Part shown: in pieces, positions 8,316-63,711 of the stretch
How the letters are laid out: the number at the start of each line of letters is the position of its first letter
Numbering within the stretch: position 1 is the first letter of the stretch
Source of the DNA: Nostoc edaphicum CCNP1411
GTDB lineage: Bacteria > Cyanobacteriota > Cyanobacteriia > Cyanobacteriales > Nostocaceae
Direction: 5' to 3'
Length of the DNA stretch: 64,000 nucleotides
Assembly: GCF_014023275.1 (NCBI RefSeq)
Contig: NZ_CP054698.1
Coordinates: 2,356,001-2,420,000 of the forward strand
Position numbers and translations under genes: made by a program
The notes under the pieces: generated by a model
Seen by the model: only the letters and a program-made list of their open reading frames with translations
What the model was told of the DNA's origin: nothing
The model's database searches: none

Positions 8316-9194
8316 ATGGCAATGAGGAGAGCAGATCGCAGAGATTCTAATTATGATAACGCTGTGAATAATCCTCGCTCAAAGCAGAAAGAACCAACTC
8401 CTTATCATGAGCTTAAACTTTCATTAATGACTGTTCGCCTCAACCTTGAGGAAGCTGCATCTGAACGCGATAAATGGCAACAACGTGCGAAAGAAAATGA
8501 GGAAGCTGCATCCCAACTGGTTCATGTTCAGCAAGAAATTCAAACTTACCAAATCGAAACGAATAAGCTAAAAGAGCAAGTCACTCAAAATTATCGCTTT
8601 TATATTGATGAACAAGAAAATTATCAAAAGACGCTCTGCCTTTATAAAGAAGAAAAAGCGAAAATATCGCAGCTAGTTCATGTTCACCAGCGAGAGATTC
8701 AAACTTGCCAACTCGAAGCTAATGAGCTAAAAGAGCGAGTAACTCAAAATTATAACTTTTATATTGATGAGCAAAAAAGTCATCAGCAAACGCTCTGTCT
8801 CTACAATGAAGAAAAAGCGAGGGCGACTGAATTTATTACTAAATATGAAGCAGTAAACTCTGAACGAGAAATGTATTTGAGTTTATACAATGAGACTAAA
8901 GCAGAACTCAAACATGAGCGTCGCTCCAAAGCTAGTATTAAGGGATGGGAAACTCGTCGCAAAGCCGAGAATGAAAAACTAAAACGGGAAATTTCCCAGA
9001 TGGTTGTGCTATTGCGTGAATCTTTAGAAAGTAAGGATGAAGCAGTAAACAGTCTTTACATTGTCGCAGAGCGTATGGATCGAATTCAATCTCTAGTTGA
9101 TTCGGTGGAAGAAGAAACAACTAACAATCCTATAGGTTTAGTACAAAAGTTTAAACGCATCTGGTTGGCAATTAAAGACATACTTTCTGAATAA
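8316..9194 (+). CDS. Coiled-coil protein of unknown function with an internal duplication
   Basis: A protein of 292 residues, nearly all charged helix, with no signal peptide or membrane segment. I do not recognise the family. Two adjacent copies of a roughly 50-residue unit are plain: SQLVHVQQEIQTYQIETNKL... and SQLVHVHQREIQTCQLEANEL..., each continuing through VTQNY.FYIDEQ and QTLCLY.EEKA. A basic stretch follows (KHERRSKASIKGWETRRKAENEKLKREI), then a C-terminal amphipathic segment (GLVQKFKRIWLAIKDIL). It lies 12 bases upstream of the next gene, so the two are probably cotranscribed. A structural or filament-forming role is possible but is only inferred. Confidence 0.7.
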   Translation: MAMRRADRRDSNYDNAVNNPRSKQKEPTPYHELKLSLMTVRLNLEEAASERDKWQQRAKENEEAASQLVHVQQEIQTYQIETNKLKEQVTQNYRFYIDEQENYQKTLCLYKEEKAKISQLVHVHQREIQTCQLEANELKERVTQNYNFYIDEQKSHQQTLCLYNEEKARATEFITKYEAVNSEREMYLSLYNETKAELKHERRSKASIKGWETRRKAENEKLKREISQMVVLLRESLESKDEAVNSLYIVAERMDRIQSLVDSVEEETTNNPIGLVQKFKRIWLAIKDILSE

Positions 9195-40947: not shown

Positions 40948-42987
40948 TTATCCCAAACCGAATAGTTTTGCGATCGCAGGCAATAATTTATTACCCGCTT
41001 CTACCAGAGAAGCAACAGCAGGTAAGCCTGTAAATATCCCTTTCAACATGGTGATGGCTGTTTTTGCCGTCTTTTGCTTAGTGGATTCTTGAGGAGTTTT
41101 ACCCGCTTCTGCCAAAGTGTTCACCTGTTCTAGCGCTTCGGTTTTGTCTTCTTCTGACAAATATGTGGATTGGACGATCGCATCTTGCAACTGCGACAAT
41201 AATTCTTTGATTCCTGGTTTCTCGGCATCGGTTGCATCAGGTAACTGATTGAGGGCAATACTCACGTTACCGCTAATGGTTCCTAGATTAGCAATAGAAC
41301 TATTGCCAGCGATACCGCTAACATTACTGCTGCCTTCAATATTGATGCCACTGATATCAGACATATTTGTATCTCCTTGTGTATAAAATTTCGGCTGCTT
41401 GAGAGCAGTATCTACCATATTTTCTAAACTAATAATGCGCTGATCTTTTTCTACCAGCAATAATTGCTGACTCTGCGATAAAGCTTTGAGTTGATTATAG
41501 TCATCAAAATATTCTGCACTCAGTTGAGATTTATCGCTACCTGCGGCGGTTTTGGCTCTGAGCAAGATTTTATCATCGCCGCGTTTCTCCATTGCCACGA
41601 TTTCTAACTCGGCTTCGGGATGATTTTCGGCAAGGTTTTTGAAGGCTATGGCAACAGCACGGGGGTCAACGCCTTGATTATGATAAAGGTCGAGGGTGTC
41701 AAAAATTGGCTTGATAAAGTCGGCAAAATCCCCGTCTGCAAATATCTCTTGTTTATTATCAGGTTTGCGGAGAGGATCGGGGTCTTCTTTGGTGGGTAAG
41801 CGCATAAAGACATATTCACACCTCACCCCATGCAATTTAGTTGTATTTGTAATGCCCCAATCTTCGATGTACGCGCCGGTGAGGGTTGCACCTGTTAAAT
41901 CTGTGCCGTCTAGTTGCGTTTGCTTGAGCTTTGCTCTTGACAAATCGGCATCTTGCAAGTTTGCTTCACTGAGATCAGCGCCTATAAAGCTGGCATCTGC
42001 TAGGTTAGCTTTTTGTAAGTTGATACCCCGCAGGTCTTCACGGTCAAAGTTTTTGTCTTGTCCCTGTCCTGTAACTAGCAGTTGACGTACTTGTGAGTTT
42101 TGCAGATAAGTTGAGCCAGAACGAACACGGTCAAGCATTTTGGCTTGATACCAACGGCTACAGATAAGAATAGTTTTTCGGAAATCTGTACTTTTGAGCG
42201 TAGCTTGGGTGAAATCAGCATTGGTTAAATTAGCGCCACGAAAACTTGTACCTCCTGTTGCAGCAAAGGCGATCGCAATATTGCGAATTAAGGAGTGTTT
42301 TTGATCTCCTTTCATAGCTCGCCAGCTGATGTAGATACTAAATAACGTTCCGGCTCCGGCTCCGGCTCCGGCTCCGGCAAAGGCTCCGGCTCCGGCGACG
42401 GTGAAGGCTCCGGCTACGGCAAAGGCTCCAGCGACGGCGAAGGCGACGGTGAAGGCTCCGGCTACGGCAAAGGCTCCAGCGACGGCGAAGGCGAAGGCGA
42501 AAGCGACGGCTCCGGCGAAGGCTCCGGCTCCGGCGAAGGCTCCGACTAAGGCGAAGGCAAAGGCGACGGCGAAGGCGACGGCGAAGGCGAAGGCAAAGGC
42601 GACGGCGAAGGCGACGGCTCCGGCTCCTAAACCAGCTATTATTCCTTGGCGAATTGTGATGAAGAAAAAGGCAATCAATGTGATTAGAGCAACCCAGCCC
42701 CCAATGGAGTCGTCACTGGATGAGCTAAATATCAGCGACACCAAGTAACCATTGATAGCCCAGAGAAATCCTGACAGTCCCGACAATAAGAATGAGATAA
42801 TAACTAAACCAATTGCCGAACGTCGTTGCAGTCCAGCTTTGGCATGGCTGAAGTTTGCCCCTGTCAGGTTGGCGTTGGTGAAGTTTGCACCTCGGATGTC
42901 GGCATAGCTAAAGTTTGCACCCACAAAGTCTTTTCTACCTTTGAAGTTGCGTCCTCGAAGATTTTGACCGGAGAAGTCTAAAGCCAT
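40948..42987 (-). CDS. Pentapeptide-repeat membrane protein with a long Ala/Phe/Gly low-complexity segment
   Basis: 679 residues from ATG 42987 (MALDFSGQNLRG); a TTG at 43011 is possible but has no ribosome binding site. Two pentapeptide blocks with the A(D/N)LxX pattern: GANFTNANLTGANFSHA near the start, and FRGANLTNADFTQA...GADLSEANLQDADLSRAKL in the middle. Between them lie two ordinary membrane helices and about 90 residues made almost only of Ala, Phe, Val and Gly (AFAVAFAFAFAVAF..., AGAGAGAG). The C-terminal 280 residues are soluble and helical, with SDISGINIEGSSNVSGIAGNSSIANLGTISG and a hydrophobic end. Probably membrane-anchored; function unknown. The Ala/Phe segment is coded by GC-rich hexanucleotide repeats unlike the rest of the gene. 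Confidence 0.8.
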   Translation of the reverse strand: MALDFSGQNLRGRNFKGRKDFVGANFSYADIRGANFTNANLTGANFSHAKAGLQRRSAIGLVIISFLLSGLSGFLWAINGYLVSLIFSSSSDDSIGGWVALITLIAFFFITIRQGIIAGLGAGAVAFAVAFAFAFAVAFAVAFAFALVGAFAGAGAFAGAVAFAFAFAVAGAFAVAGAFTVAFAVAGAFAVAGAFTVAGAGAFAGAGAGAGAGTLFSIYISWRAMKGDQKHSLIRNIAIAFAATGGTSFRGANLTNADFTQATLKSTDFRKTILICSRWYQAKMLDRVRSGSTYLQNSQVRQLLVTGQGQDKNFDREDLRGINLQKANLADASFIGADLSEANLQDADLSRAKLKQTQLDGTDLTGATLTGAYIEDWGITNTTKLHGVRCEYVFMRLPTKEDPDPLRKPDNKQEIFADGDFADFIKPIFDTLDLYHNQGVDPRAVAIAFKNLAENHPEAELEIVAMEKRGDDKILLRAKTAAGSDKSQLSAEYFDDYNQLKALSQSQQLLLVEKDQRIISLENMVDTALKQPKFYTQGDTNMSDISGINIEGSSNVSGIAGNSSIANLGTISGNVSIALNQLPDATDAEKPGIKELLSQLQDAIVQSTYLSEEDKTEALEQVNTLAEAGKTPQESTKQKTAKTAITMLKGIFTGLPAVASLVEAGNKLLPAIAKLFGLG

Positions 42988-43068
42988 GTTCCACTTTACG
43001 GAGGTGAGCAAATTTTACTACACGCTCACCCCTGTAAATTCATGAATGGTTAGATATATTTGTTAGTT

Positions 43069-43299
43069 GAGGCTAAAAGGTGCAATTTCGAGGATAAAAG
43101 GCGCAACTTTGAGGATAAAAGGTGCAACTTCGAGGATAAAAGGTGCAACTTCGAGCCTCAGAAGGTCAACGTCGAGCCTCAGAAGGTCAACATTGAGGTT
43201 AAAAGGTGCAACTTCGAGGATCAAACGTGCAACTTCGAGGCTCAGAAGGTCAACGTCGAGCTTCAGAAGGTCAATGTTGAGGTTCTGAGGCTCATTGTT
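43069..43299. repeat. Eleven tandem 21-bp units of two alternating types
   Basis: Type 1 begins GAGGATAAAAGG and ends TGCAACTTC; type 2 begins GAGCCTCAGAAGG and ends TCAACGTC. The order is 1,1,1,1,2,2,1,1,2,2 plus a degenerate last unit. On the + strand the array reads as heptapeptides (EDKRCNF / EPQKVNV) in an open frame from a TTG at 43060 to 43392, but there is no ATG or ribosome binding site, so I do not call a gene. Confidence 0.88.
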
Positions 43300-43344
43300 G
43301 AAGTACAGCCAATACGGTTTGGCTGGGTAATAGTAATTGAGAGT

Positions 43345-43932
43345 TCACTTCCGTCCTGCCAAGACTTGTTCGGCACTCAAATCCAACTGTGAAAAAGTAA
43401 AAGAGATGATGCGTTCTTGTCCTCGGAATACAACAGCATCATAGAACCCTTCTACTAGGGTGCATATTGTTACTATTTCTTGAATTGGGTCAACAATCCA
43501 ATATTCGGGAATTTCCAGAACAGCATACTCAGAACGTTTGCTGCGATAGTCTGTGGTTTGTGTAGATTCGCTGACGACTTCTACCACTAATGTGGGGGGA
43601 GTTTCGTTGAGTTCGATTACAGCTTCTCGATTAGAAAGTGCTTCCCACTGCTGTGTTGGTAATACTACTACATCTGGAATTCGTGAGGTGTCCCAGCGTC
43701 CTTTGCGTGGAGAACACACTCCTACAGAAAACTTTTGTGCTGTCCAATTCTGTCCCATTTTGGCGCTTTCATCATCAAAGCTTCGTTCTAAAAACTTGGA
43801 GATGCCACCGTGCTTGCCAGTGCCAAGGCTGATGGGAATTAATTCTCCATCTACCAATTCATATTGGGTATCCGTGCCATCGTTATACTTAAGATACTCT
43901 GCAAAAGTAAATTTTTTTGTGGTTGCAGTCAT
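43345..43932 (-). CDS. Uma2-family (DUF820) nuclease-like protein
   Basis: 195 residues. Conserved core residues are RIPDVVVLP (Asp), LVVEVVSEST (Glu) and YRSKRSEYAVLEIPEYWIVDP (Lys/Tyr), as in the Uma2 PD-(D/E)XK-like fold. Clearly divergent from the other Uma2 protein at 7201-7827 (shared core, different termini). It stands alone beside the 21-bp array; no partner gene is evident. Confidence 0.87.
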   Translation of the reverse strand: MTATTKKFTFAEYLKYNDGTDTQYELVDGELIPISLGTGKHGGISKFLERSFDDESAKMGQNWTAQKFSVGVCSPRKGRWDTSRIPDVVVLPTQQWEALSNREAVIELNETPPTLVVEVVSESTQTTDYRSKRSEYAVLEIPEYWIVDPIQEIVTICTLVEGFYDAVVFRGQERIISFTFSQLDLSAEQVLAGRK

Positions 43933-43997
43933 AGCGATACCTACGGTGGGCTGCGCCTACGCAATTCTCATTGATGACTCAATACAGTTATTCTACT

Positions 43998-44020
43998 TGC
44001 ATTACAGGAAATACTGATGG
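43998..44020 (+). pseudogene. 5' relic of the small membrane-protein gene
   Basis: ACTTGCATTACAGGAAATACT followed by ATGGAACGTT matches the leader and first codons of the intact gene at 45550, then diverges at once. It lies directly left of the hairpin array. Confidence 0.6.
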
Positions 44021-44063
44021 AACGTTAAAAATTAAGGCGTTGCTGAATCAAGGGATGATTCTT

Positions 44064-45064
44064 GTAGGGTGGGCGTCTCGCCATTGGTGTCAACTTAACG
44101 TGAAACTGCACGTCCACCAGGAATTGAAATTCCTGGCTCATAGCCGAAGTCATCTAAAGATGACTAAATAAAATATCCCGAAAAATCTTGAGTCTACTTC
44201 AGTAGACTTTACCTATTAGGCGGGAACTTCAGTTTCCGACGGGTACTCAAGCCAAGTGAGAAGTCCACCAGGAATTGAAATTCCTGGCTCATAGCCGAAG
44301 TCATCTAAAGATGACTAAATAAAATATCCCGAAAAATCTTGAGTCTACTTCAGTAGACTTTACCTATTAGGCGGGAACTTCAGTTTCCGACGGGTACTCA
44401 AGCCAAGTGAGAAGTCCACCAGGAATTGAAATTCCTGGCTCATGGCCGAAGTCATCTTTAGATGACTAAATAAAATATCCCGAAAAATCTTGAGTCTACT
44501 TCAGTAGACTTTACCTATTAGGCGGGAACTTCAGTTTCCGACGGGTACTCAAGCCAAGTGAGAAGTCCACCAGGAATTGAAATTCCTGGCTCATAGCCGA
44601 AGTCATCTAAAGATGACTAAATAAAATATCCCGAAAAATCTTGAGTCTACTTCAGTAGACTTTACCTATTAGGCGGGAACTTCAGTTTCCGACGGGTACT
44701 CAAGCCAAGTGAGAAGTCCACCAGGAATTGAAATTCCTGGCTCATGGCCGAAGTCATCTTTAGATGACTAAATAAAATATCCCGAAAAATCTTGAGTCTA
44801 CTTCAGTAGACTTTACCTATTAGGCGGGAACTTCAGTTTCCGACGGGTACTCAAGCCAAGCGAGAAGTCCACCAGGAATTGAAATTCCTGGCTCATGGCC
44901 GAAGTCATCTTTAGATGACTAAATAAAATATCCCGAAAAATCTTGAGTCTACTTCAGTAGACTTTACTTATTAGGCGGGAACTTCAGTTTCCGACGGGTA
45001 CTCAAGCCAAGTGAGAAGCCATCCATAGCTTAAGTTGACACTAATGGCAAGATGCCCATCCCAC
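44064..45064. repeat. Composite repeat: 35-bp imperfect inverted ends enclosing the 151-bp tandem array
   Basis: The left end (44064-44098, GTAGGGTGGGCGTCTCGCC...) and the reverse complement of the right end (45030-45064) agree at 30 of 35 positions, and all five differences are transitions. The ends are of the same kind as the GGGTGGGCGTCTCGCC repeat seen at 58320. Nothing in it codes for protein. Confidence 0.85.
44112..45017. repeat. Six tandem 151-bp units, each with three or four hairpins
   Basis: Units start at 44112, 44263, 44414, 44565, 44716 and 44867 and are almost identical. Each contains CCAGGAATTGAAATTCCTGG, an AGTCATCT/AGATGACT stem, AGTCTACTTCAGTAGACT and a weaker GGAAC/GTTTCC stem. 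Units 1, 2 and 4 have loop centre CTAAAG after CATAGCCG; units 3, 5 and 6 have the exact reverse complement CTTTAG after CATGGCCG. It resembles BIME/REP clusters; a transcribed repeat RNA is another possibility. Confidence 0.95.
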
Positions 45065-45090
45065 AAAACTAGTAAAATCATCCCGAAAAT

Positions 45091-45155
45091 ATGGAACGCT
45101 CGAAATTAATTGCTATTCTTACAGGCGCGATTTCGCTCATTTTAGCGATCGCTTT
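45091..45155 (+). pseudogene. Truncated copy of the 61-residue membrane-protein gene
   Basis: ATGGAACGCTCGAAATTAAT and the following bases match the start of the intact gene at 45550 (MERSKLIAILTGAISLILAIA). The match ends at about 45155, where sequence from the vapC-like remnant on the other strand begins. The transmembrane helix is kept and the C-terminal 35 residues are lost. Confidence 0.85.
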
Positions 45156-45207
45156 TGTCATGGAGCGTGAGCCAGCCCCATGTATCAATAAAAAGCTTAT
45201 CCCCCAT
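45142..45207 (-). pseudogene. 5' remnant of a VapC-type PIN-domain toxin gene
   Basis: The ATG overlaps the antitoxin stop (CTATGGGGGATAA), as is usual in such pairs. The frame reads MGDKLFIDTWGWLTLHD, a PIN-domain start with the first catalytic Asp, and then breaks into the truncated membrane-protein copy and stops after 21 codons. Everything after the first strand and helix is missing. Confidence 0.75.
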
Positions 45208-45412
45208 AGAGTTCGTCGTCTAAGTTGGCAGCTAGAGAACCGTGAGATACTGCGCCGATGAAATTTGCCAGGGGATCGCTGCTTTGGGTGTGTGGGTTAG
45301 ATGCTGGTGATTTTTGGGTACGTGCAAGTTGTTGAACATACTGCAACACGTCTTTTAGGTGTTGCTCTGGCAGTTGTTCAATAGCGTCAAAGATAGCTTG
45401 TTTCATTGTCAT
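45197..45412 (-). CDS. VapB-like antitoxin, now without its toxin
   Basis: 71 residues. The N-terminal helical part (MKQAIFDAIEQLPEQHLKDVLQYVQQLARTQ) is followed by a flexible region. The C-terminal tail (DPLANFIGAVSHGSLAANLDDELYGG) is the form seen in cyanobacterial antitoxins paired with PIN toxins and would normally wrap the toxin. The toxin start overlaps its stop codon but the toxin is cut off after 17 authentic residues. It may persist as an autoregulator or as an orphan antitoxin against related toxins elsewhere. Confidence 0.72.
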   Translation of the reverse strand: MTMKQAIFDAIEQLPEQHLKDVLQYVQQLARTQKSPASNPHTQSSDPLANFIGAVSHGSLAANLDDELYGG

Positions 45413-45549
45413 GGCAATAGCTCAATGTCGCTTTCAGGTTATTAATATTTTATGTGCTAAAGTGCGGTTCGCTCACACCCAGAAACAATAGCCGAGTTTA
45501 TTATGTGGATATAGGCACTGCATAACAACTTGCATTACAGGAAATACTA

Positions 45550-45735
45550 ATGGAACGTTCAAAATTAATTGCTATTCTTACAGGCGCGATTTCGATCATT
45601 TTAGCGATCGCTTACCTCATCGTAGTCCAACTACTAGACTACCGGGACATGAAACCCGCCCCCATCAGCCAATTTGACCAAGCGCCTGCAATTATTTCTG
45701 TTGTTTGGCAGATTGACAAAATTACTAGAGTGTAA
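45550..45735 (+). CDS. Small single-helix membrane protein
   Basis: 61 residues: MERSKLIAILTGAISIILAIAYLIVVQLLDYRDM gives one transmembrane helix with a short N-terminal side, then a polar tail (KPAPISQFDQAPAIISVVWQIDKITRV). No name can be given. Two damaged copies of its start lie at 43998 and 45091, so the locus was duplicated at least twice. A terminator follows at 45760; the next gene, ndhF, is 374 bases on, so cotranscription is unlikely. Confidence 0.7.
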   Translation: MERSKLIAILTGAISIILAIAYLIVVQLLDYRDMKPAPISQFDQAPAIISVVWQIDKITRV

Positions 45736-45759
45736 ACTGCATTTAGCTGACTTGTAGAG

Positions 45760-45783
45760 AAAGACGCAATCAGTTGCGTCTTT
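45760..45783 (+). terminator. Rho-independent terminator
   Basis: AAAGACGCAA, loop TCAG, TTGCGTCTTT, followed by TGTC. It lies 24 bases after the small membrane-protein gene. Confidence 0.82.
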
Positions 45784-46039
45784 TGTCATTTATGTCAATA
45801 AGTAAAAATTCACAATGAGTATTGATGAAACCAACAGTTAATTCATAGATAAAAAGCAATACCTATTATTCATTACTCAAATAGTTGATTATATAAGTTT
45901 TATTTAGAGGAATTATCTCAGATTTGTTTAGATAAAGTAATTCCATTTTGTCAAATATAACGGTAAGCTGTTTCTAACAAAATTAAATAAAGATAAATTT
46001 GTCTTATCTGCCTAGGGGTAGCTCATCGTAGACATCGCT

Positions 46040-46075
46040 GGGTTAACAGGGATCAACGCTAGTTGATTCCAAACC
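46040..46075. promoter_or_regulatory. Possible operator upstream of ndhF
   Basis: A dyad GGATCAAC-GCTA-GTTGATTCC at about 46050-46070, 40 bases before the ndhF start. The size fits a LysR-type regulator site (NdhR/CcmR and CmpR control such genes in cyanobacteria), but it does not match their published motifs as I remember them. Confidence 0.3.
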
Positions 46076-46109
46076 CCAACTTTTTGATACAAATTTAGAG
46101 GTTAAGTTG

Positions 46110-47987
46110 ATGGCTCAGTTTCTACTTGAGACTGTTTGGCTAGTTCCTTGCTATGCCTTAATAGGCGGCTTGTTAGCAGTGCCTTGGTCACCGGGGATCA
46201 TTCGGAAAACGGGGCCAAGACCGGCGGGTTATCTAAACTTGGTGATGACATTTTTGGCGTTTGTGCATTGTGCGATCGCCTTACAAGCAACTTGGAATTA
46301 TCCAGCCCAAGAAGTATTTATACCTTGGTTATCTACAGCTGGTTTAGACCTCACTATTGCTTTGGAAATATCCTCAGTTAGTGTTGGCGCTTTAGTTGTG
46401 ATTACTGGGTTAAATTTGCTGGCGCAAATTTATGCCATCGGCTACATGGAAATGGATTGGGGTTGGGGACGCTTCTATTCCTTATTAGGAATGTTTGAAG
46501 CGGGACTATGTGCCCTTGTTCTGTGTAATGACTTGTTCTTCAGCTATGTAATTTTGGAAATCCTTACCCTGGGAACCTACCTGCTAGTTGGCTTATGGTT
46601 TAGCCAGCCGTTGGTAGTCTCAGGTGCAAGGGACGCTTTCTTAACCAAGCGGGTGGGAGACTTATTCTTACTGATAGGCGTATTGGCATTATGGCCCCTC
46701 GCCGGAACTTGGAATTACACAGAATTAGCTGAATGGGCGGCTACTGCTAACGTCAACCCGACAACTATGGCACTGGTAAGTTTAGCTTTAATTGCTGGGC
46801 CGATGGGTAAATGTGCCCAATTTCCCCTGCATTTATGGCTAGATGAAGCGATGGAAGGCCCAGTTCCCAGTACAATTTTGCGGAACTCGGTAGTAGTAGC
46901 TAGTGGTGCATGGGTGCTAATTAAATTGCAACCTGTGTTAAGCATATCGCCCATAGCTTCCTCGGCGATGGTTGTCATTGGTGCGGTGACAGCCGTGGGT
47001 GCTTCGTTAATTGCGATCGCTCAAATTGATCTTAAACGCTGCCAATCCTATTCTGTCAGTGCATACATGGGTTTAGTATTTATCGCCGTGGGAGTGCAAC
47101 AATACGAAGCAGCGCTATTGTTAGTACTCACCCATGCTATATCCGCAGCCCTGTTGGTGATGAGTACTGGGGGAATTATCTGGAATAGCATTACCCAAGA
47201 TGTCACCCAATTAGGCGGATTGTGGAAGCGTCGCCCGATTTCTGCGATCGCTTTTATCGTCGGGACTTTGGGATTAATTGGTTTTCCACCCCTGGGTAGC
47301 TTTTGGGCGCTGATGGAACTAGCAGATGGGTTGTGGGAAACGCAGCCTTGGTTAGTGGGAGTAGTGATCGCGGTAAATGCTTTAACAGCCGTGAGTTTAA
47401 CCAGAGAATTTGGTTTACTTTTTGGTGGTAAAGCTACACAAATGAGTGAGCGATCGCCTGAAGCACACTGGCCGATGATTCTGCCAATGATGATTTTACT
47501 TGGCGTTAGTCTACATCTTCCTTTGATGTTGCAAAGCTTATCACTTTTACCCAATTGGGCAACTCTAAATAAAGATGTCGCACTACTTTTAATTTGGTCG
47601 AGTATTTTCGGTTGCAGTATCACTGGCGTGATTTATTTAGGCAATATTCCTAAACCGATTCGCCTGCCTTGGAAAGGCTTACAAGACTTATTGGCATACG
47701 ACTTTTACACACCCAAACTCTATAAAATGACCATAATTTTTGGAGTTGCCAAAATTTCCCAACTTGCCGATACAATTGACCGCTTTGTAGTCGATGGCAT
47801 CGTTAATTTTGTCGGTTTATTTTCGCTATTAGGGGGCGAAGGTCTTAAATACAGCACCTCTGGACAAGCTCAATTTTATGCCCTCACTGTCCTATTAGGA
47901 GTGAGCGCTTTAGGAATGTGGGTAGCTTGGCCATTTTGGGGAGTGCAGTTTTTAAATTTTGTTTTTCAAATCTCGACAATTGGGTAG
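46110..47987 (+). CDS. ndhF: NAD(P)H dehydrogenase-1 subunit NdhF, CO2-uptake type (F3/F4)
   Basis: A membrane antiporter-like subunit (625 residues) of a specialised NDH-1 complex in the thylakoid that drives CO2 hydration. About 16 hydrophobic helices, with family motifs DLFFSYVILEILTLGTYLLVGLW, GPMGKCAQFPLHLWLDEAMEGPVPSTILRNS (antiporter Lys/His channel residues) and LIAIAQIDLKRCQSYSVSAYMG. ATG 46110 lies nine bases after AGAGG; a TTG three bases earlier is less likely. The cluster with ndhD and a Cup protein marks it as the CO2-uptake and not the respiratory form. No cupS follows, which leans towards the constitutive F4/D4/CupB set, but I could not settle F3 against F4. Confidence 0.9.
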   Translation: MAQFLLETVWLVPCYALIGGLLAVPWSPGIIRKTGPRPAGYLNLVMTFLAFVHCAIALQATWNYPAQEVFIPWLSTAGLDLTIALEISSVSVGALVVITGLNLLAQIYAIGYMEMDWGWGRFYSLLGMFEAGLCALVLCNDLFFSYVILEILTLGTYLLVGLWFSQPLVVSGARDAFLTKRVGDLFLLIGVLALWPLAGTWNYTELAEWAATANVNPTTMALVSLALIAGPMGKCAQFPLHLWLDEAMEGPVPSTILRNSVVVASGAWVLIKLQPVLSISPIASSAMVVIGAVTAVGASLIAIAQIDLKRCQSYSVSAYMGLVFIAVGVQQYEAALLLVLTHAISAALLVMSTGGIIWNSITQDVTQLGGLWKRRPISAIAFIVGTLGLIGFPPLGSFWALMELADGLWETQPWLVGVVIAVNALTAVSLTREFGLLFGGKATQMSERSPEAHWPMILPMMILLGVSLHLPLMLQSLSLLPNWATLNKDVALLLIWSSIFGCSITGVIYLGNIPKPIRLPWKGLQDLLAYDFYTPKLYKMTIIFGVAKISQLADTIDRFVVDGIVNFVGLFSLLGGEGLKYSTSGQAQFYALTVLLGVSALGMWVAWPFWGVQFLNFVFQISTIG

Positions 47988-62336: not shown

Positions 62337-63711
<1,375 letters not shown>

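Follow-up and report, generated by a model that had tools for sequence, protein, structure and literature searches.

Organization of the locus

The window analysed here is the whole 64,000-nt stretch of Nostoc edaphicum CCNP1411 DNA, and the coordinates given below refer to it unless another locus is named. Between a Uma2 family gene and ndhF3, a tandem repeat search identified an array of six head-to-tail 151-bp units (44112-45017; TRF score 1737), six being the count in the assembled sequence. The array is carried by a miniature transposon placed in a palindrome. The features considered are the following.

43345..43932, minus strand: Uma2 family gene (PF05685), neighbour, by profile match
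44062..45066, no strand: palindrome holding the inserted element, arms TTGTAGGGTGGGC ... GCCCATCCCACAA
44073..44081, plus strand: left 9-bp target site stretch GCGTCTCGC, at the position of the 9-bp duplication in the family
44082..45046, no strand: miniature transposon (965 bp) carrying the array, with 17-bp inverted ends CATTGGTGTCAACTTAA / TTAAGTTGACACTAATG
44082..44098, plus strand: left terminal inverted repeat, an exact match to the ends of the likely IS4-family parent
44112..44262, plus strand: unit 1, unflipped loop
44117..44136, plus strand: unit 1 hairpin 1, CCAGGAAT TGAA ATTCCTGG
44148..44165, plus strand: unit 1 hairpin 2 (the loop that flips), AGTCATC TAAA GATGACT
44191..44208, plus strand: unit 1 hairpin 3, AGTCTAC TTCA GTAGACT, terminator-like on the minus strand
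44221..44238, plus strand: unit 1 hairpin 4, CGGGAAC TTCA GTTTCCG
44263..44413, plus strand: unit 2, unflipped loop
44414..44564, plus strand: unit 3, flipped loop, A to G at unit position 31
44565..44715, plus strand: unit 4, unflipped loop
44716..44866, plus strand: unit 5, flipped loop, C at unit position 146
44867..45017, plus strand: unit 6, flipped loop, T at unit position 102
45030..45046, minus strand: right terminal inverted repeat, one mismatch
45047..45055, plus strand: right 9-bp target site stretch GCAAGATGC, at the position of the 9-bp duplication in the family
46107..47987, plus strand: ndhF3, neighbour, followed by genes for carbonic anhydrase, an NDH subunit M homologue and ChpXY

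The arms of the outer palindrome (44062-44098 and 45030-45066) match at 86%. As in a MITE, the array element has inverted ends and no transposase of its own, and the ORF listing contained no ORF of at least 80 aa within 44082-45046. Its 9-bp flanks differ at 5 positions when compared directly and at 2 positions when one of them is read as reverse complement; being unequal, these flanks do not amount to a duplication that would prove the insertion of the array element itself. The same pair of tips also flanks L105, L109 and the IS copy L199 (relative G032). The right half of the outer palindrome (45029-45099) is itself dispersed, with many matches of 54-71 bases in the genus, so that the array is a repeat within a repeat.

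Structure of the repeat unit

When unit 1 was folded, we obtained four hairpins, each with a stem of 7-8 bp and a loop of 4 nt, and the fold was better than those of 200 out of 200 dinucleotide shuffles (z of -4.46 as DNA and -4.23 as RNA). An earlier note on this DNA had described six 151-bp hairpin units with a reversing loop, and the units at 44112-45017, with four hairpins each, bear this out. Comparison of the six units gave five variable positions in all (31, 45, 46, 102 and 146). Position 31 is A in units 1, 2 and 4 and G in units 3, 5 and 6, and positions 45-46 are AA in the former and TT in the latter. The change from AA to TT turns the loop TAAA into its exact reverse complement, TTTA, and leaves the arms unchanged. 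We could confirm by sequence comparison the claim that the two hairpin forms (AGTCATCTAAAGATGACT and AGTCATCTTTAGATGACT) are exact reverse complements. The further claim, that the units are alike but for one linked pair of differences, was right as to the linkage (position 31 with positions 45-46) but not as to this being the sole variation, as positions 102 and 146 vary too.

The single copies L007-L009 of the same genome and L064 of a relative (G019) have the TAAA loop and A at position 31, which is the form of units 1, 2 and 4; we therefore considered the flipped form of units 3, 5 and 6 as derived. The C at position 146 of unit 5 is also present in these four single copies, which argues that the units were reshuffled or duplicated more than once. 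Identity is 97-100% among the array units and 92-93% to the nearest single copies, so that the amplification looks recent, as had been proposed.

The element family in the genome

The earlier note had suggested searching the genome for single units, and this search returned dispersed copies. Precisely, the unit had 42 matches across the genome (8.3 Mb in 6 contigs), of which 36 lie beyond the array; one of the 36 spans only 39 bases. When 24 dispersed copies were aligned with their surroundings, the matched sequence proved to lie inside a roughly 200-bp element whose ends are CAYTGGTGTCAACTTAA; some of the copies have lost an end or diverged there. The N. edaphicum genome contains at least 43 elements of the same architecture, array element included, mostly near 200 bp in length. 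The end motif occurs 81 times genome-wide, against 0 for the reversed control. The interior of a single copy consists of two facing hairpin pairs, each formed by a hairpin, a CTATNAG-type spacer and a second hairpin, in opposite orientations; these are short palindromes in paired, inverted orientation, as in REP, BIME and REPIN sequences. Searches of a plasmid collection gave partial elements in 4 records and in 1 record.

We found 45 end pairs, of which an exact 9-bp duplication flanks 10, and a duplication with at most one mismatch 16. With re-paired flanks, 0.6 exact 9-bp duplications were expected (maximum 3 in 200 trials). For the other duplication lengths the exact count was 0 at 4-7 and 11-13 bp, two at 8 bp and one at 10 bp. 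The element L036 was scored as a miss, its left end having been mis-set by the script; by eye both its stretches are AACCCAACA. The chance pair L038 was left out, which gives 44 rows, and L051 was entered twice among them, which gives 43 distinct elements. In 19 of the 44 rows the flanks beyond the 9 bp are complementary at 7 or more of 10 positions, with the 9 bp at the palindrome centre, versus a mean of 0.2 rows (maximum 2) for letter-shuffled flanks. The family favours the axis of palindromes as its target. The tips are reverse complements with at most 2 mismatches in 13 of 44 elements, a count in which near-palindromic tips are considered both ways. In L010, L012, L018 and L029 the 9-bp flanks are reverse complements of each other, exactly or with one mismatch, instead of direct copies, which is what a flip of the target tip following insertion would give.

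A probable IS4-family parent

In the N. edaphicum genome the search for a transposase of the kind described below gave two weak fragments and no intact gene, and among the unpaired ends of the loci then examined no inward pair 400-3500 bp apart was found save the array's own. In two of the four genus members scanned, pairs of the same ends lie 0.9 to 1.6 kb apart and enclose degraded copies of one gene. An intact copy from a related Nostoc (L192, 433 aa) is an IS4-family transposase, with scores of 213.7 bits for NF033592 (cut-off 115; NCBIfam) and 54.3 bits for PF01609 (cut-off 23; Pfam). The search in the genus gave 20 loci, 10 with both ends, and an exact 9-bp duplication in 4 of these 10; the search in named genomes gave 15 loci, 10 with both ends, and an exact 9-bp duplication in 5 of these 10. 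Nostoc carneum NIES-2107 accounts for four of the five named-genome duplications, one of them plasmid-borne; there GGCARTGCC is duplicated, and 3 of the 4 are bordered on each side by six complementary bases.

We considered as the likely parent an IS4-family insertion sequence that shares these ends and is present in intact form in related Nostoc. On the basis of the same ends, the intact transposase and the 9-bp duplications, the miniature elements are best read as its non-autonomous, IS4-type relatives. The identical 9-bp duplications point, indirectly, to past mobility by IS4-type transposition, and the enzyme indicated by the element ends is an IS4-family DDE transposase and not a RAYT. 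An IS1-like reading of the inverted end had also been considered and was dropped when the IS4-type transposase was found.

Growth of the array

In single copies the sequence runs ...GCAC-GTCCACC...(hairpins)...GAGAA-GCCAT..., and in the array GAGAA is joined each time to GTCCACC. The array is thus the interior of the element from GTCC to GAGAA, repeated six times. At the unit junction the common sequence is of about 1 bp, which suggests that the first step was more likely a slip or an end joining than an exchange between long repeats. Where the array unit begins, tandem duplications of GTCCGCCA(GCAC), 8 or 12 bp long and one or two per copy, are present in 8 of 22 main-subfamily copies, one copy of the 23 (L013) being impossible to parse for this count; the left breakpoint is a hot spot of such duplication.

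A replication slip at the hairpins would have produced the first duplication, and unequal exchange would then have enlarged and homogenised the array. The flip in the array and the nearby A to G change would most simply have one origin and have spread with the unit. A search for the same unit junction in the named GTDB genomes, among which records near the N. edaphicum genome may be absent, gave 0 matches. In another genome (G006; locus L156, 771-1927) there is a second array, with five 231-bp units of the same hairpin family. One unit of this second array has a loop that is off by one base (CTTTAG).

Probable inversion of the hairpin loops

To count flipped loops we used an anchored hairpin, AGTCNNCT-NN-AGNNGACT, followed by TNNNCNATNAG, which fixes the orientation. 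In 53 genomes of the genus, there were 996 anchored loops with TC or TT (unflipped) and 119 with GA or AA (flipped), so that 119 of 1,115 TC/TT-type hairpins read flipped. A further 507 loops are TG or TA, and 5 others have a first base different from T (four CA and one GT). Flipped loops are present in 26 of the 53 genomes. Subdivided by stem, the loops are distributed as follows; the flipped counts comprise all 119, and the unflipped counts are among the 82 non-own rows listed (150 of the 996 were listed, 68 of them own).

GT stems: TT in 22 of 22 unflipped; AA in 19 of 19 flipped
TA stems: TC in 13 of 19 unflipped; GA in 22 of 25 flipped
AT stems: 12 T and 14 C unflipped; 21 T and 14 C flipped
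CT stems: 10 C and 3 T flipped
CA stems: 2 T and 1 C unflipped; 18 T and 3 C flipped
TT stems: 5 T unflipped; 5 T and 1 C flipped

On CA stems, 18 of the 21 flipped-looking loops are AA, most of these 18 being from one genome (G044) that has no loop among the unflipped rows listed, and the listed unflipped CA stems mostly have TG or TA. The flipped-looking loops on CA stems may be single substitutions from TTAA, and the same could apply to some flipped-looking loops on other stems; the flipped rows without CA stems are 98.

The main subfamily in the N. edaphicum genome, taken without the six outer-subfamily copies L007-L012, consists of 23 near-identical copies with a mean pairwise difference of 3.0%. 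The left hairpin is flipped in 5 of the 23, with 0 one-base intermediates, versus 0.0007 flipped copies expected from independent substitution. For each flipped copy the nearest neighbour is unflipped, at 1-4 differences over about 190 other positions, save that in one case another flipped copy is equally near; this suggests several flip events. L051 (TT) requires a flip and one substitution. Gene conversion between copies may have moved flips from one to another, and for this reason 119 should not be read as a count of events. Other hairpins were also reversed: in L108 the right outer hairpin reads as the reverse complement of its usual form (19 copies), and in L011 as the reverse complement of the form shared by L010 and L012. 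In the array, in L108 and in L011 the loop is replaced by its exact reverse complement while the perfect arms are unchanged. The inversion of the stem-loop, raised as a possibility in the earlier note, is supported, as the loop appears to reverse repeatedly within the repeat family.

We infer that template switching during replication is the likeliest cause of the flips. A polymerase copying one arm would move to the complementary strand at the other arm, copy the loop there and then return, which would leave the 4-nt loop reverse-complemented and the paired stem unchanged. Recombination between the arms would yield the same product. The CA stems and the arm length of 7 bp speak slightly against this reading. 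The right inner hairpin is flipped in 0 of 29 copies, and there are four CA loops versus 507 TG or TA loops, which a uniform flip rate would not predict. TTGA loops are scarcely ever flipped (4 TCAA), and TTCA and TTTA loops do flip.

Alternative explanations

A flipped loop could also arise by two substitutions by way of TTAA, with no inversion, if selection kept the loops as TNNA. TTAA is one step away from both forms and frequent (TG and TA together are 507), and on CA stems the flipped-looking loops are mostly AA while TT is rare among the unflipped rows listed. In this case, however, the flipped loops of GT and TA stems would not be expected to match, as they do, the complement of the unflipped loop on the same stem; the main subfamily has 5 flipped copies and 0 of 23 one-base intermediates; the one-base steps GC, AT and CG do not occur among the 124 loops without T as first base; and the longer loops of L108 and L011 are exactly reversed too. 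We considered this explanation as quite unlikely. That the flips are errors of sequencing or assembly at hairpins is very improbable: they were read from assemblies, and the equivalent element of G019 is interrupted by NN, but in the array the flip goes without exception, in 3 of 3 units, with a base change at a distance of 14 bases, and flipped loops were found in about half of the genomes, as counted above. A recombinase or an HUH (Y1) transposase could instead cut the hairpin and rejoin it either way. A check for a REP-associated tyrosine transposase, suggested in the earlier note, was positive for the gene and gave a weak association with the hairpins. Pfam and NCBIfam comparisons of the genome's three PF01797 genes classed L033 as a clear RAYT and L031 as IS200-type, with L032 scoring below the RAYT cut-off. 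In the motif scan neither the L032 nor the L033 locus contained such a hairpin; at the L031 locus two facing hairpins with the same kind of spacer (1195-1345), a doublet of the general kind but not the fully anchored motif, lie about 150-300 bp upstream of the gene at 1495. Among 30 genus loci with an L032-type gene, the anchored motif was present in 2 (L166 and L168), versus 0.37 expected from its mean density, and absent from 28. The G006 array lies directly before a fragment that reads by eye like a RAYT start and later part, and a search of the plasmid collection for relatives of the L031 protein gave no match. The doublet at L031 and the 2 loci versus 0.37 led us to raise our estimate for an enzyme, which we still regard as unlikely; hairpins of different sequence flip, which a sequence-specific enzyme does not readily explain, and the link between RAYT and hairpins suggested by these loci is weak.

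The position of the element between the Uma2 gene and ndhF3 could suggest that the array is a selected regulator of the ndhF3 CO2-uptake region, acting as a structured RNA or as serial terminators of leftward transcription. In 43900-46200 there are 10 terminator-like sites versus 1.7 expected in shuffles, with one per unit on the minus strand. An array transcribed in the manner of NsiR1 would have a promoter in each repeat; promoter-like sites, on the contrary, are 4 versus 4.8 expected, none of them in the array, and an Rfam search over 43000-46200 gave no relevant match, but one sub-threshold eukaryotic snoRNA outside the array. At 29 loci of relatives, in the approximately 1.5 kb before the match, a unit-like match longer than 40 bases is present only in G032, G006 and G052. 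The element in G032 is truncated on one side and in opposite orientation; G019 has, in the same outer palindrome, the element of the other subtype that is interrupted by NN; and the end motif is present at 3 of the 29 loci (G008, G019 and G052). Such low conservation of position offers no argument for control of ndhF3, and this role also seems unlikely to us. We consider it probable that the array element is an IS4-related mini-transposon with a slip-amplified interior, whose loops were flipped by template switching.

Covariation of the stems

The left hairpins are perfectly paired in 27 of 29 copies despite several stem sequences, and at the same position of the stem L007, L008 and L009, which are close relatives, have C-G, T-A and A-T. 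Double changes of this sort in a stem are usually taken as a sign of selection for structure. For rRNA genes, PMC8794818 argues that template switching makes double stem changes in one step. We propose tentatively, with more doubt than confidence, that the hairpin repeats of Nostocales are a recorder of template switching, that the switching which flips the loops would also copy one stem arm onto the other, and that their compensatory stem changes could be a mutational product and not the result of selection on RNA. A loop flip keeps the stem pairing, so that the flip frequency could gauge template switching with little confounding by selection on the stem. If about one in ten hairpins of the family is flipped, covariation in such repeats would be no face-value proof of a functional RNA. 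The nesting of a palindrome, a palindrome-seeking IS4-type element, hairpin doublets and internal amplification illustrates a route from a hairpin-rich element to a satellite array.

Relation to known systems

The small dispersed repeats of Nostoc that Elhai described in 2008 are said to be tiny palindromic sequences with compensatory changes, often inside minitransposons, and the hairpins studied here resemble them by that description. As described in PMC3116915, REPINs form tandem clusters and are tied to RAYTs; PMC3733652 describes cyanobacterial REPs tagged with GTAG, with GTAG-15 dimers of Anabaena variabilis inside long palindromes. Our elements are like both in having inverted hairpin doublets and also ordered tandem arrays, but unlike REPINs they have a weak RAYT link, and the GTAG families are set beside them by description. 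By description, too, they resemble Nezha and other cyanobacterial MITEs (PMC3733652, PMC10969869), which are non-autonomous inverted-repeat elements. For BrickBuilt of Porphyromonas gingivalis, PMC4596501 describes a minisatellite inside a MITE, with a 23-nt unit and with forms of the element at 19 places in its genome. Our locus is similar in being a tandem array in an intergenic non-autonomous inverted-repeat element, and different in that the expansion affects a single element out of at least 43 and has a four-hairpin unit of 151 bp. Insertion at the axis of REP palindromes is described for ISRm22, of the IS4 family (PMC1525189), and family and palindromy-axis insertion are the same here; the palindromes, however, are other repeats (GGGTGGGC..., TAGGGGCA...) and the copies found in this genome are all non-autonomous.

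As regards the loops, the 69 inversions confined to the loop that PMC8794818 describes in rRNA genes, bacterial examples included, mostly concern loops of four nucleotides, and PMC8604942 reports spacer inversions in yeast with arms longer than 9 bp. In those cases as in ours the loop is the exact reverse complement between perfect arms, but they are described as rare, in rRNA or yeast genes, whereas here the arms are of 7 bp, the family is mobile and about one loop in ten is flipped-looking. The small inversions of chloroplast hairpins in PMC12928735 are also short segments found in both orientations between inverted repeats; they differ from ours in belonging to plastids, in being ascribed to recombination and in their repeats of 11-24 bp. 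MITE minisatellites, insertion sequences at the REP axis, tandem REPIN clusters and loop inversion by template switching are each in print. Going by the titles and abstracts listed, we found no description in the literature of loop inversion in a bacterial REP-type repeat, and as far as these go, what is new is that these features occur together and that so large a proportion of the loops of a bacterial repeat family is flipped.

Other repeats and small ORFs in the window

A small ORF, with start MERSKLIAILTGAIS by eye, begins at 45551, about 550 bp before ndhF3, and the stretch containing it was matched upstream of ndhF3 in many genomes of the genus. A similar ORF start lies to the right of the array (45091 onward), and a 41-base piece upstream of it is also found to the left of the array. 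At 43067-43284 imperfect copies of a 21-bp sequence (GAGGATAAAAGGTGCAACTTC) stand in tandem and read as a seven-residue motif that recurs, and a similar stretch is present in G018 (L124). A very low-complexity repeat at 42349-42624 lies inside a pentapeptide-repeat gene (PF00805; 40948-43011), and the window contains more tandem arrays, at 8529-8820, 62429-62536 and other positions.
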